64,000 nt of DNA from an uncultured Desulfobulbaceae bacterium (GTDB lineage: Bacteria; Desulfobacterota; Desulfobulbia; Desulfobulbales; Desulfocapsaceae). Each line of letters begins with the position of its first letter. Position 1 is the first letter of the stretch. The notes below the pieces were generated by a model, which did no database searches, was not told the DNA's origin, and was given only the letters and a program-made list of their open reading frames with translations. The position numbers and the translations under genes are program-made. Where the stretch lies: NCBI GenBank assembly GCA_937910875.1, contig CALENA010000037.1, forward strand, positions 1-64,000, read 5' to 3'. Shown piece after piece: positions 44,818 to 49,705 of this stretch.

Positions 44818-46440
44818 GTGGATGCCACCGTTGGGGGACGGATCTTGTTGAAATTGAAATCAATTGTTTTGTTCTGCTGGTCTTCGTCCAAGACCTATTC
44901 CCTTTTTTTTGTCACCATTGTCGTGTCGTCCGTGGCGCTCTCCCTGCTCATTACCGCCCTGCATCACCAGCGGGAGAGAGAGTATCTCAACCAGATCACC
45001 CAGCAGCAGCATATTCAACTGAAGTCGATTCTCTTCACTCTGGAGAATACCGCCGACATCGTCTTTGAGAACGTCATCAACCAACCGGACATCATTGATC
45101 TCATGGCACGGGCGTCCCGGGCCTCAGAGAGTGAGCGCGGTGCATTGCGCACCCGGCTCTTTGAACGGCTGGCCCCGGCCTATCAGCTGATGGAAGCCAG
45201 GGGTGGGCGCCTGCTCCACTTTCATCTGCCCGGGGGGATCAGCTTTCTGCGTTTTCACCGGACCGATGTCTATGGCGATGATCTGACAGAGGTCAGGCCT
45301 TCCATCAATCAGGTCAATGAGAGTGGTGATGTGGTCCGTGGTTTTGAGGAGGGGCGGGTCTTTCAGGGGTTTCGTAATGTCTATCCTCTCAGGCAGGGGG
45401 ATGAACTGGTGGGAACCGTGGATATTTCCTATTCCTTTCTGGCCTTGCGTGATCTGGCAGTCCGTTTGTTTCCGGCCATTTATACCCTGATGTACCATAA
45501 GGAGTCGGTGGCCAGGGTTGCAGGCGAGGAAGACCAGGGACGGTACCGGCAATGTCGTGTTTCACCCTTTTATCTGAAAGAACAGGAGGCTGTGGCCCAT
45601 ATCAAGGCCGAGCTGCCGGGGTTGAATATTGTTTCTCTTGAGACTCTCCAGCAGTTGAACAGTGATTTGCGGGAGCAGGTTGCCGAGCGGATGGAGGCCA
45701 GAGCGGAATTTTCTGTCTCCCGGTTGATTCCTGGAGATCATAAAATCCTGGTGGTGACCTTTCTGCCGATTCGTAACATTCAGGGTGATGCGGTGGCCTA
45801 TTTTGTCAGTTATCGTCCTGACCGGAACGTGGCTGACTACAATCGTCGATACCATCAGATGCGGCGGGTGATTGTGGCGCTGACCCTGATATTTTTTTTT
45901 TCGGGTCTGCTCTATTATCGCCAGACTCTGCATAAGGAAAAGTATCAGGCCCTGGCCACCAGTGATAGGCTGACCCGGCTGGCCAATCGCCTTCACTTTG
46001 ATCTGGTTCTCGACCAGATCCTGCGTCAGGTGAGGCGGGGGGAACAGTCCCTGTCTCTGCTGATGCTGGATATCGATAATTTCAAACAGGTCAACGATGT
46101 CTACGGACATGATGGCGGTGACCGTGTCCTTGTCTCTGTGGCCGGGGTCTTGCGGGGCACGGTTCGGGAGCAGGACCTGGCGGCCCGCTGGGGGGGCGAG
46201 GAATTTGTGGTTCTGCTGCCTGGGGCCTCTGGTGAAGAGGCCGGTCGGGTCGCAGAGAAGATCCGCCAGGCCATTGCCGATCATGAGACCGTCTCAGGTA
46301 GCCAAATGATCCAGGTGACCTGCAGTTTCGGGGTGGCTGAATATGGTAAAGGGATGACGGCCGAAGAGTTGTTGAAACGAGCGGATCAGGGTTTGTATCT
46401 GGCCAAGGAGCGTGGCAAGAACTGTGTGGTCAGGTCCTGA
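44818..46440 (+). CDS. Membrane diguanylate cyclase with periplasmic sensor domain
   Basis: 540 residues. Transmembrane helix about 28-47, a large periplasmic Cache-like sensor (about 50-345), a second helix (VIVALTLIFFFSGLLYY) and a C-terminal GGDEF domain with the intact RWGGEEFVVLLPG and substrate-binding DIDNFKQVNDVYGHDGGD. An RxxD inhibitory site is not obvious. It makes cyclic di-GMP at the inner membrane. The 3' end overlaps sbtM by 11 nt, tail to tail. Confidence 0.92.
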   Translation: MDATVGGRILLKLKSIVLFCWSSSKTYSLFFVTIVVSSVALSLLITALHHQREREYLNQITQQQHIQLKSILFTLENTADIVFENVINQPDIIDLMARASRASESERGALRTRLFERLAPAYQLMEARGGRLLHFHLPGGISFLRFHRTDVYGDDLTEVRPSINQVNESGDVVRGFEEGRVFQGFRNVYPLRQGDELVGTVDISYSFLALRDLAVRLFPAIYTLMYHKESVARVAGEEDQGRYRQCRVSPFYLKEQEAVAHIKAELPGLNIVSLETLQQLNSDLREQVAERMEARAEFSVSRLIPGDHKILVVTFLPIRNIQGDAVAYFVSYRPDRNVADYNRRYHQMRRVIVALTLIFFFSGLLYYRQTLHKEKYQALATSDRLTRLANRLHFDLVLDQILRQVRRGEQSLSLLMLDIDNFKQVNDVYGHDGGDRVLVSVAGVLRGTVREQDLAARWGGEEFVVLLPGASGEEAGRVAEKIRQAIADHETVSGSQMIQVTCSFGVAEYGKGMTAEELLKRADQGLYLAKERGKNCVVRS

Positions 46441-48016
46441 TTGGTTCGGGGCAAATCCCTGTGTCTTTGAAGCAGTATGGGTCTCGTTTTTTGAAGACAT
46501 CAAGGCCAAAGCCGTGGCTCACGGCCAGGCAGCCGCCGCAGAGGGGACGAATGTCGCAGTCGTGGCATTCGTCCGGGCCGCTGCGGTATCTTTCGGCCTG
46601 TGGGCCGTCATAGATTTCGGCCAGATTCTCTCGGAAGATGTTGCCCATGGGTGAGGGAAACTTGCGGCAGGCATGGACCTCGCCATCGGGCAGAAGGGAG
46701 ACGAAGTTGAAGGCGGCCCCGCAGCCGTAACCGGCGCAACCACCGGTCAGTTCCAGGCCCTGCCGGGAGCGGAGGAGGTTGAACAGGTTATCCTTGAGGC
46801 CCATGTGCGGGTTGCTTTGGGCCATCTCCTGGTATTGTTCAAGAAAATCAGAAAAATCATCGGTCGGGGCCGAGGCCAGGGCTGCCCCCTCGCCGACCAT
46901 GGCCAGGCGGTTGAAGGTGAAGCGATCGACCAGCCCGCGCAGGTGTCCTGCCAGTTCCAGGACCATCCCCTGATTGGCCCGGGTCAGGGTCAGCATCACC
47001 ATGGAGTAGATCTGCAGTTCTTTGAGGAGTTCCAGAAAGGCCAGGGTCCGTTTAAAATGGCCTGACCCTCGGATGTAGTTGTTGTGTGTTTCCAGTCCCT
47101 CAAGGCTGACCTGATAAAAAACCGGCTTCTGGATGGCCAGGATCTCCTCGATCTGGGCCCTGGGCATGGGGTTGCCAAGGATTGCGGTCATGAATCCACG
47201 ATCTGCCGCCGCCTGGTAGAGCTCGTTGAAGTGGGGATGCAGCAGTGGGTTGCCGCCGGTAAACGAGACCTGGGTGAAGACGTGGCGGGCACGGCAGAAA
47301 TCATAGAGATCGTCAAGGACCCGCAGGCCCTGGTCCAGGCTGACCTCGGTTCGCTGGCTGCGGTCGTAGCAGTGGCGGCAATGCAGGTCGCAGGTCTGGG
47401 TGAGGTGCCATTGCAGGGTAAAGGTGGGGGCGCTGAATCGTTCCGGTTCGGTGACGGTTCCGTGCGGGAACTCCGGGCCGCGGCAGATTGTTGATGGTGG
47501 GGCCAGGAGCAGGCCTTGCTGGATCCCTCGGTAGACGATGTCATCGATCTGACCAGGAGTGACCTGGTGTTCTGCGGCCAGGATGCGGGAATCAAGGTGT
47601 TCGCTGATGATCTTCAGGGCCAGGAGGTCGTCCTGGCCTGGGGTCCGGATCTGTACGGAATGATCGTGGGGATGTTTATAGACAAGGACCATGCCGGGCT
47701 CTGGCTCAGGGCTGAGGCTCTGGTCGCCTAAAAATTCCGGGAGTCGCCCCCATTGCACCTCGATCAGCTCCAGAGTTGGGTTGATGGTGCAGGTCGTAAC
47801 CGAGGCCGGGATAAGCGATGGTCGCTGGTGGAGTTGAAAACAGACAGACTCGATCCGGGCCAGGTCGGCCAGAAAGGGGGTGCGGCCAATCAGTTCGGGA
47901 TGATCGGCGAGGATCTGCGGCAGAGTCTCTGGATTGTCCAGGCCGGTCAGCGCCACAGGCAGGAGGCGGTGGCAGACGGGGTAGATGGTGCTCAGTGGTC
48001 TCTGGTCCTGGGGCAT
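46430..48016 (-). CDS. sbtM: Radical SAM/SPASM peptide maturase, SbtM type
   Basis: 528 residues. The N-terminal about 200 residues are a peptide-recognition-like region without known motif; then the radical SAM cluster CDLHCRHCY (Cys 209, 213, 216), SFTGGNPLLHP, and a C-terminal SPASM-type Cys set GGCAGYGCGAAFNFV, GEVHACRKFPS, ECHDCDIRPLCGGCL...DPYCF for auxiliary clusters. Such enzymes modify ribosomal peptides using SAM radicals. It lies just downstream of the selenocysteine peptide gene sbtA, separated by a terminator, which identifies it as the selenobiotic/thio(seleno)oxazole maturase family as I recall it. The ATG at 48016 is beyond the terminator and is preferred, though its ribosome site is weak; a TTG at 48127 lies inside a hairpin. 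Confidence 0.85.
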   Translation of the reverse strand: MPQDQRPLSTIYPVCHRLLPVALTGLDNPETLPQILADHPELIGRTPFLADLARIESVCFQLHQRPSLIPASVTTCTINPTLELIEVQWGRLPEFLGDQSLSPEPEPGMVLVYKHPHDHSVQIRTPGQDDLLALKIISEHLDSRILAAEHQVTPGQIDDIVYRGIQQGLLLAPPSTICRGPEFPHGTVTEPERFSAPTFTLQWHLTQTCDLHCRHCYDRSQRTEVSLDQGLRVLDDLYDFCRARHVFTQVSFTGGNPLLHPHFNELYQAAADRGFMTAILGNPMPRAQIEEILAIQKPVFYQVSLEGLETHNNYIRGSGHFKRTLAFLELLKELQIYSMVMLTLTRANQGMVLELAGHLRGLVDRFTFNRLAMVGEGAALASAPTDDFSDFLEQYQEMAQSNPHMGLKDNLFNLLRSRQGLELTGGCAGYGCGAAFNFVSLLPDGEVHACRKFPSPMGNIFRENLAEIYDGPQAERYRSGPDECHDCDIRPLCGGCLAVSHGFGLDVFKKRDPYCFKDTGICPEPIRT

Positions 48017-48051: not shown

Positions 48052-48089
48052 GAAAAAGAAAGGGCCGGTCCCTGAGTTGAGACCGACCC
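48052..48089 (-). terminator. Intrinsic terminator/attenuator between sbtA and sbtM
   Basis: On the minus strand GGGTCGGTC pairs with GACCGGCCC (one G-U) over a 10-nt loop, then TTTCTTTTT. It would give abundant sbtA message and limited sbtM readthrough. Confidence 0.8.
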
Positions 48090-48107
48090 TGGACTGTCAG
48101 CTGTGGT

Positions 48108-48124
48108 GCGTGCAACCTGCACGC
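48108..48124 (-). promoter_or_regulatory. SECIS-like hairpin 2, for the UGA at codon 100
   Basis: Minus strand GCGTGC-AGGTT-GCACGC: 6-bp stem and a 5-nt loop starting AGG. The loop G lies 22 nt after the UGA, the spacing and G-bearing loop expected of bacterial SECIS elements. It falls beyond the TAA stop. Confidence 0.7.
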
Positions 48125-48130
48125 CAATGA

Positions 48131-48439
48131 TTAACCGCTTCAGCCGCTGGCACTGGCCTTTTTTTTGACCTTTACCTTTTCTTTTTCGACCGCCTCAATC
48201 ATCTTTTCGGAATCGTCTGCTGCCGGTTTGGCCATTTCTGCGGCGTTCTCAGGAATGGGAGATTCGCTTATGGCGGTTTCGGCTGCTGGTTTGACCACCT
48301 TTTCAGTGCTACCTGCACTGGGTTTGTCGCTTCAGCCGCTGCTGGCGGCCTGGAGAGCCGGGATCGTATAACTGCAGGCGCTGATCAGCCCTGCAGCCCC
48401 GATACCGGCCAGAATTTTTTTCAGGTCCTTGTTCTTCAT
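48131..48439 (-). CDS. sbtA: Selenocysteine-containing RiPP precursor SbtA (two UGA codons)
   Basis: 102 residues if both in-frame TGA codons (48334-48332, codon 36; 48142-48140, codon 100) are read as Sec; the stop is TAA at 48133. GGAGG sits 5 nt before the ATG. The N-terminus MKNKDLKKILAGIGAAGLIS ends in the lipobox-like ISAC (Cys 22, the only Cys). The middle is Lys/Glu/Ala/Pro-rich. Both UGAs lie in ASxSGUS contexts coded by the shared AGCGGCTGAAGCG, and each has a SECIS-like hairpin with an AGGU loop downstream. The radical SAM gene sbtM follows. If UGA terminates, only a 35-residue peptide results. Family name is from recall; the product's structure and activity are unknown. Confidence 0.85.
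48304..48320 (-). promoter_or_regulatory. SECIS-like hairpin 1, for the UGA at codon 36
   Basis: Minus strand CAGTGC-AGGTA-GCACTG: perfect 6-bp stem, 5-nt loop starting AGG. The first loop G is 18 nt after the UGA. The hairpin is inside the reading frame. Confidence 0.75.
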
Positions 48440-48475
48440 GTTCCCCTCCGGAAAAAGGTGCCTCGTGGTGTGCCG

Positions 48476-48508: not shown

Positions 48509-48538
48509 AGTATATCGTTCGGAATGCGGTCGTGTCAA
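48509..48538 (-). promoter_or_regulatory. Strong sigma70-type promoter of sbtA
   Basis: Consensus TTGACA (48538-48533), 18-nt spacer and TATACT (48514-48509) on the minus strand, about 65 nt before the ribosome site. Confidence 0.75.
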
Positions 48539-48931
48539 GGAATGATATTTGTTCTCTTTTTGGCCGGGCCATGTGTGCGATTGGCTGGAGAGCTTAGGCC
48601 AGAGGTCGTTGTGGATGAACATTTGAGTTCAGGGCGAGAGATGTTGCTGTCTGCGGCAGCTGAGGGGATGTTATCGGGAAATGAGGCCGTTGGAGGGCTG
48701 CGGTTCTGGTGAATTAAGAGCGATGAGAGGTTGAGCCTTGAACCGATGAGCTCTTTGTGATACTTGTTAGTCCAAGATGGAGTTGTAATCATTTCAAGTT
48801 ACACGTGGGGCGCTGTGTTTTGCCGGCAGATCAAAGCAGATGGGATGCTGAACCGGTGAAACGAGAGTGCGACGATGCAGGTCTGAAGTCAAGTGACGTC
48901 CCTGTTTGACGGGACGCTTGTTGAGGATGCG

Positions 48932-49705
48932 ATGACACAAAAACAGGAAACGCCGGGTTCAGTCATCTGGCCGGGATTCAGGCTTTTTTTTATTGTTTAT
49001 CTGCTGTCCGGGGGGCTGCTTGCCGGCCTGCTGGTTCTTTTCTCTGCCCCGGTGCCTGGGGGCTGGGTATCTGGCCAGGATCTTTCGGTCACAGTGCGCT
49101 TTGGCTTCGGGGCCGGAATCTTTATCCTGATTGGTATCGCGTCCTGGTTTGTCGCGTATGGCATCACCTGGCGCCGGATGCATCAGGCCCAACTCATGGC
49201 CATATCCATGTTCGATTCCCTGACCGGTCTGCCCAACCGCCGTCTCTTTTTTGATCATCTGGACACAGCGATCAAGCATGACCGCCGCAACAAGACCATG
49301 ACCGGTCTGCTCTATCTGAATCTTGACGGTTTCAAAAAGGTCAATGCCGAGCTGGGACATGATGCCGGTGATGAGTTACTCTGTGTGGTGGCCCGGATTC
49401 TTGAAATCGGTGTCCGTCAGTCCGATACCGTGGCCAGGTTGGGGGGTGATGAGTATGCCATGATTCTACCTCTGATCACCGCGGCCGATGGTGCCGAACG
49501 GGTGGCTGAGAAGGTGATGGCCGCCCTGACCAAGCCGGTGCAGTTGATTGTCGGCAGTGTTGCGGTGAGTGTCAGTATCGGTGCGGCCGTGACCCCGAGG
49601 GACAGTGATGATGTGGATGAATTGATGCGGCGTCTGGATCTGGCCGTGTCCATGGCCAAGAAACGTTCCGGGAATGCCTGTGTCGTGGTGGGGCCGGAGG
49701 GATGA
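48932..49705 (+). CDS. Membrane GGDEF-family protein with GGDEY motif
   Basis: 257 residues: two N-terminal transmembrane helices (FRLFFIVYLLSGGLLAGLLVLF and FGAGIFILIGIASWFVAYGI), then a GGDEF domain (MFDSLTGLPNRRLFFDHLD, LDGFKKVNAELGHDAGDELL, RLGGDEYAMILP). The motif is GGDEY, not GGDEF/GGEEF, so cyclase activity is possible but uncertain; it may bind GTP instead. The ATG at 48932 has GAGG 5 nt upstream; a GTG at 48893 in frame would add 13 residues. Confidence 0.85.
   Translation: MTQKQETPGSVIWPGFRLFFIVYLLSGGLLAGLLVLFSAPVPGGWVSGQDLSVTVRFGFGAGIFILIGIASWFVAYGITWRRMHQAQLMAISMFDSLTGLPNRRLFFDHLDTAIKHDRRNKTMTGLLYLNLDGFKKVNAELGHDAGDELLCVVARILEIGVRQSDTVARLGGDEYAMILPLITAADGAERVAEKVMAALTKPVQLIVGSVAVSVSIGAAVTPRDSDDVDELMRRLDLAVSMAKKRSGNACVVVGPEG

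Follow-up and report, generated by a model that had tools for sequence, protein, structure and literature searches.

The locus lies on the minus strand of the window, by which we mean the whole 64-kb stretch of DNA that was analysed, and consists of the short gene sbtA, running from 48439 to 48131, and the gene sbtM for a radical SAM/SPASM maturase, which begins about 115 bases downstream of it (Table 1).

A probable selenocysteine-containing precursor gene and its predicted maturase

With UGA read as selenocysteine (Sec, U), the translation of sbtA is MKNKDLKKILAGIGAAGLISACSYTIPALQAASSGUSDKPSAGSTEKVVKPAAETAISESPIPENAAEMAKPAADDSEKMIEAVEKEKVKVKKKASASGUSG*, which has 102 residues and includes U36 and U100. 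An initial annotation of this DNA had proposed a 102-codon frame in which codons 36 and 100 are UGA, and gave no strand; translation confirms the frame and places it on the minus strand, and the plus-strand reading of the same coordinates, which we rejected, yields no sensible protein. Its further statement that both UGAs stand in the same coded context also holds: the 13-mer AGCGGCTGAAGCG forms the context of both and occurs exactly twice in the 64 kb, at those two sites, where 0.07 occurrences would be expected by chance in the window with one mismatch allowed. The promoter and ribosome binding site (RBS) that it had listed are both real pattern matches, and each is also found in the sister species. 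The terminator that it had listed was located as well, with a stem folding at -22.8 kcal/mol (z -5.9). Because this structure sits between sbtA and sbtM, it is assigned as an inter-gene terminator or attenuator, and it would set precursor output above enzyme output. GGDEF-like signalling genes from the ORF list flank the cassette on both sides on the opposite strand (window positions 48893-49705 and 44818-46440).

Table 1 Features of the sbtA-sbtM locus, in window coordinates.
Feature	Position	Strand	Description
Sigma-70-like promoter	48509..48538	-	TTGACA-18-TATACT; 11/12 matches, 0.6 expected in region
Ribosome binding site	48443..48449	-	GGAGGGG, read from sequence
sbtA	48131..48439	-	102 codons, TGA at codons 36 and 100 predicted to be read as Sec, TAA stop
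Leader	48374..48439	-	Lipoprotein signal peptide features: positive start, hydrophobic stretch, putative lipobox ISA|C at Cys22 (rule-based)
UGA codon 36	48332..48334	-	Predicted Sec, module 1, SSGUSDK
SECIS 1	48304..48320	-	CAGUGC[AGGUA]GCACUG; within coding region (codes PSAGST)
Decayed second module	48269..48271	-	Codon 57 ATA (Ile), UGA in sister; hairpin also lost (alignments)
UGA codon 100	48140..48142	-	Predicted Sec, last module, ASGUSG*
SECIS 2	48108..48124	-	GCGUGCA[GGU]UGCACGC; past TAA stop
Intrinsic terminator/attenuator	48061..48090	-	Between sbtA and sbtM; 12-bp stem then TTCTTTTT
sbtM	46430..48016	-	Radical SAM/SPASM maturase, 528 aa from likely ATG start
RRE-like N-terminal domain of SbtM	47507..47779	-	Residues 80-170 (approximate); three strands followed by three helices
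CxxxCxxC radical SAM motif of SbtM	47369..47392	-	CDLHCRHC; invariant in 42 homologues

The leader of sbtA matches the NCBIfam model TIGR04081 (SbtA) with 37.2 bits at a cut-off of 30.5, the only match above cut-off in the genome, and SSGUSD and ASGUSG both conform to the SbtA module context SG(U/C)(S/G). The next gene, in which the initial annotation had recognised a radical SAM/SPASM protein directly downstream, reaches 669.5 bits against TIGR04082 (cut-off 350) and carries the Pfam domains Radical_SAM and SPASM. The earlier reading of the locus as a precursor of the SbtA type that carries two Sec codons, next to an SbtM gene, is supported. Residues C209, C213 and C216 of SbtM and its SPASM cysteines are invariant in an alignment of 42 sequences. 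The AlphaFold2 model of the enzyme has a mean pLDDT of 92.7, and the PDB structures that match it best, CteB and SuiB, align with it along almost their full length. Both CteB and SuiB have an RRE at the N-terminal end. In the model the N-terminal region of SbtM likewise looks like a RiPP recognition domain, and such a unit fits recognition of the strongly conserved leader. We conclude that sbtA is a real, easily overlooked gene. It would escape ordinary gene callers, but it is an ordinary member, if a somewhat reduced one, of a family that already has a name, a curated HMM and an enzyme that has been characterised.

The genome (2.36 Mb, 92% complete) also encodes the Sec machinery. The initial annotation had named selA, selB, selC and selD as genes to look for, and all were found in this genome above their family cut-offs, selA with 607 bits, selB with 374, selD with 377 and tRNA-Sec with 70.4. 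The selD match (L048, G000:C118:11362-12300) contains one in-frame TGA, and the SelD of the host genome is probably itself a selenoprotein.

SECIS hairpins after the UGA codons

Each of the two UGAs is followed by a small hairpin. The stem of SECIS 1 starts 11 nt after UGA36 and its loop 17 nt after it, with 6 bp in the stem, AGGUA in the loop and a folding energy of -9.2 kcal/mol. In SECIS 2 the stem starts 15 nt after UGA100 and the loop 21-22 nt after it, with a stem of 6-7 bp, the loop (A)GGU(U) and an energy of -11.1 kcal/mol. The published rules for bacterial SECIS elements specify a stem of 4-16 bp, a loop of 3-9 nt with a G in its first two positions and 16-37 nt from the UGA, and a minimum free energy of at most -7.5 kcal/mol (PMC13188914), and both window hairpins agree with them in loop size, G position, distance and energy.

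We then built a covariance model, R1, from 73 hairpins located downstream of UGAs in sbtA of other genera, with the window and its genus excluded. Its alignment contains compensatory changes in 6 of 6 pairs, and has 97.5% of cells paired and a G at every second loop base, although the choice of hairpins was guided in part by the presence of a stem and a G[G/U] loop, which inflates the latter two figures and affects the covariation less. When the 64 kb were scanned with R1, SECIS 1 ranked first (26.5 bits) and SECIS 2 second (17.9 bits, whole-window E 0.15), followed by a match of 13.7 bits. Further matches of this type in the genome reached at most 21.7 bits and had no Sec-like context where inspected, and an Rfam scan over the sbtA region at a relaxed threshold returned chance matches only. 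Across the family, a hairpin of at least 5 bp is in place at 128 of the 137 module UGAs; the corresponding figures are 11% for all TGAs at these loci and 6% for shuffled sequence.

The hairpins also seem to leave a trace in the protein. Downstream of 84 of the 90 internal Sec modules stands the tripeptide [Ala/Thr]-[Gly/Val]-[Ser/Gly]; no such tripeptide accompanies any of the 26 internal Cys modules, and it is also missing at C-terminal modules, where the hairpin usually lies beyond the stop codon. Most simply, what is repeated beyond SGU would be a coding shadow of the SECIS and would not reflect peptide chemistry.

Two other layouts were seen among the homologous loci. A single downstream hairpin is common to two UGAs four or five codons apart in L094 (U36/U40), L106 (U35/U40) and L109 (U35/U40), and the same arrangement occurs in L118 (U35/U40), L077 (U98/U103), L107 (U96/U101) and L130 (U34/U39), with the hairpin about 24-29 nt from the first UGA and 11-15 from the second; one SECIS may serve two Sec codons in these close pairs. 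The genes in L088, L090, L091 and L092 end in SGUSG followed by a UGA that is apparently a true stop, so that UGA would act as Sec and as stop three codons apart, with one hairpin downstream.

Module number in the family and in the sister species

SbtM above the family cut-off is present in 18 of 38 near relatives and in 39 of 395 members of the phylum; a search with the single SbtM recovered only four relatives. We tabulated 46 precursors, leaving out near-duplicates and unclear or all-Cys ones. Three UGAs are the commonest number (23 precursors), followed by two (16) and four (four), with one precursor each at one, five and six; at least two UGAs are thus present in 45 of the 46, and six is the maximum. 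Gaps of 50-66 residues between UGAs recur (66 in L109, 59 in L122, 55 in L106 and 51 in L108), and a 2026 review presents the SbtA family as SGUG with two Sec (PMC13188914). The view in the initial annotation that two Sec sites far apart in one precursor are unusual is therefore not supported; for this family two is a normal number, if anything on the low side. The second UGA/Cys position, which it had proposed to look for in homologues, is borne out, with UGAs kept at the first and the C-terminal module.

Several variants were noted in the survey. The candidate Sec codons of L094 (six UGAs) and L092 (five) exceed the 2-3 Sec given as the upper range for prokaryotic selenoproteins (PMC13188914). 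Tandem sbtA copies occur in L056, L100, L116, L119, L077 and L107. An all-Cys copy without the AGS imprint is the second copy in L077 and L107 and the only one seen in L078, and Cys predominates in the precursors of L121 and L123, whose one Sec is C-terminal; they may represent a Cys/Sec transition state. In five genomes sbtA is unlinked from sbtM (L129-L133, in G124, G036, G023, G007 and G021); the unlinked genes of L130-L133 have two or three UGAs.

In the sister species (G001) sbtA has four modules (U36, U57, U82 and U113). The window gene keeps modules 1 and 4, its second module has decayed, and module 3 of the sister falls in a deletion. The promoter, the RBS (aligned with GGAGGAG), the first and last modules and the terminator region are kept in the sister, and leader codons 1-28 encode an identical peptide in both species. 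These alignments suggest that the window gene derives from a precursor with more modules, of which two middle ones were lost. The ancestral number was probably the four of the sister, and since family members widely keep the second module there, a loss on the branch to the window gene is more probable than a gain on the sister's side. The initial annotation had also proposed a synonymous-site analysis of protein constraint downstream of codon 36, and the outcome is divided: the sequence there is conserved in the sister across both UGAs, but the protein constraint is much weaker than in the leader, with a pN/pS (window versus sister) of 0.11 over codons 1-35 and about 0.5-0.7 downstream, where few codons and the overlapping SECIS constraint weaken the test.

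Proposed maturation, product and related systems

We consider it highly probable that SelB and the SECIS elements direct Sec insertion at both UGAs and that SbtM, guided by its RRE-like domain, oxidises each module. In a first step, SelB would insert Sec at both UGAs, each with its own SECIS and the second of these just past the stop; judged from the sequence comparisons, Sec insertion at both sites is strongly supported. In a second step, SbtM would bind the conserved leader via its RRE-like domain and oxidise each Ser-Gly-Sec to a (seleno)oxazole. This chemistry is predicted for the window SbtA by analogy with a characterised family member, another SbtM that turns Cys/Sec peptides into oxazole with the loss of four hydrogens (PMC11002830). 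In a third step, the lipoprotein-like leader would direct export by the Sec/lipoprotein route, perhaps with membrane anchoring and without a dedicated transporter; by a loose rule, 14 of the 46 precursors have a lipobox, and others have signal-peptidase-I-like ends. No recurrent third gene was found near sbtM in 46 loci besides common ORF families and antisense shadows, and given also the five genomes with an unlinked sbtA, there is no sign of a gene dedicated to export or immunity.

In a last step, the selenooxazoles might bind a soft metal such as copper. We put forward metal binding by the modified peptide tentatively, as the function we favour, on the analogy of captophorins and bufferins, which are copper-binding thiooxazole peptides with a signal peptide and a repeated motif (PMC12452194, PMC12668002). 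Alternatively, the product could be a secreted antimicrobial instead of a metal-binding peptide: a review labels the family selenobacteriocin (PMC13188914), and the SbtA product would be a modified peptide whose leader resembles a signal. We regard this as unlikely, given that no immunity, protease or transporter gene recurs near sbtM in 46 loci, that the precursor lies away from its maturase in five genomes, and that repeated heterocycle modules with a signal peptide are a better fit to the copper-binding captophorins and bufferins (PMC12668002, PMC12452194). Extending the metal-binding reading to the whole family is speculative: SbtA peptides could be modular arrays of up to six Sec that are exported and chelate metals through selenium, as the selenium equivalent of captophorins. 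Each module would have its own SECIS (in some, two UGAs would share one), and the coding repeat (Ala-Gly/Val-Ser after each Sec) would owe its existence solely to the SECIS encoded at that place. Comparison with the thiooxazole copper peptides would give the SbtA family a testable role.

Two further alternatives concern the gene itself. It is very unlikely that the locus is decaying toward a pseudogene without a meaningful product. Two of the four modules seen in the sister have been lost, and about half of the family-level relatives searched have no SbtM above the family cut-off, but SbtM is intact here with all its conserved cysteines, the leader is under the constraint given above (pN/pS 0.11), the promoter, the RBS and both remaining SECIS are conserved, and other genera, too, have precursors with two UGAs (16 of the 46). 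That only UGA36 is read as Sec, and UGA100 mainly as a stop that leaves a product ending in Ala-Ser-Gly without Sec-Ser-Gly, is likewise very unlikely: UGA100 is only three codons ahead of TAA and has the lower-scoring hairpin, but this hairpin is at the expected place, a compensatory change of its outer pair keeps the pairing in the sister species (ACGUGCA..UGCACGU), SGUSG is also the C-terminus of at least eight homologues, the majority of which have a hairpin beyond the stop codon, and nothing else accounts for a loop-G hairpin past UGA100.

With Sec insertion at both UGAs and oxidation by SbtM as the preferred reading, the cassette can be set beside known systems. The SbtA/SbtM family (TIGR04081/TIGR04082), reportedly described by Lewis et al. 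in 2021 (Biochemistry 60:3347) as a thio(seleno)oxazole RiPP family, has in common with it the leader, the adjacent radical SAM/SPASM maturase, the SG-U-S/G modules and a SECIS after each UGA. The window gene differs in its module number, two as against four in the sister and three in most relatives, and one lost module is traceable as a decayed codon. Captophorins and bufferins (5-thiooxazole copper peptides, MNIO-made) have a signal-peptide leader, to which the putative one of SbtA would correspond, and resemble SbtA in a repeated Cys-type motif and in the class of five-membered heterocycle predicted for it, but they depend on an MNIO and a partner protein in place of a radical SAM maturase and use Cys in place of Sec. 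We considered the window cassette as a member of that group and rejected it, as the adjacent maturase is radical SAM/SPASM and there is no recurrent third gene; it would be a functional analogue only. CteB and SuiB, RRE-bearing RiPP maturases of the radical SAM/SPASM type, are the closest solved folds to the SbtM model, including the N-terminal RRE region, although they form thioether or carbon-carbon links and their identity to SbtM is only 17-18%. The SECIS of E. coli formate dehydrogenase follows its UGA as a small hairpin whose apical loop contains GGU. The sbtA hairpins are likewise small with a GGU loop, whereas sbtA has one per module and the last of them lies outside the coding frame. 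Overall, the comparative picture is one of Sec modules gained and lost singly, each together with its SECIS, and this gain and loss is a natural test of the SECIS rules, including those for a SECIS past the stop codon.
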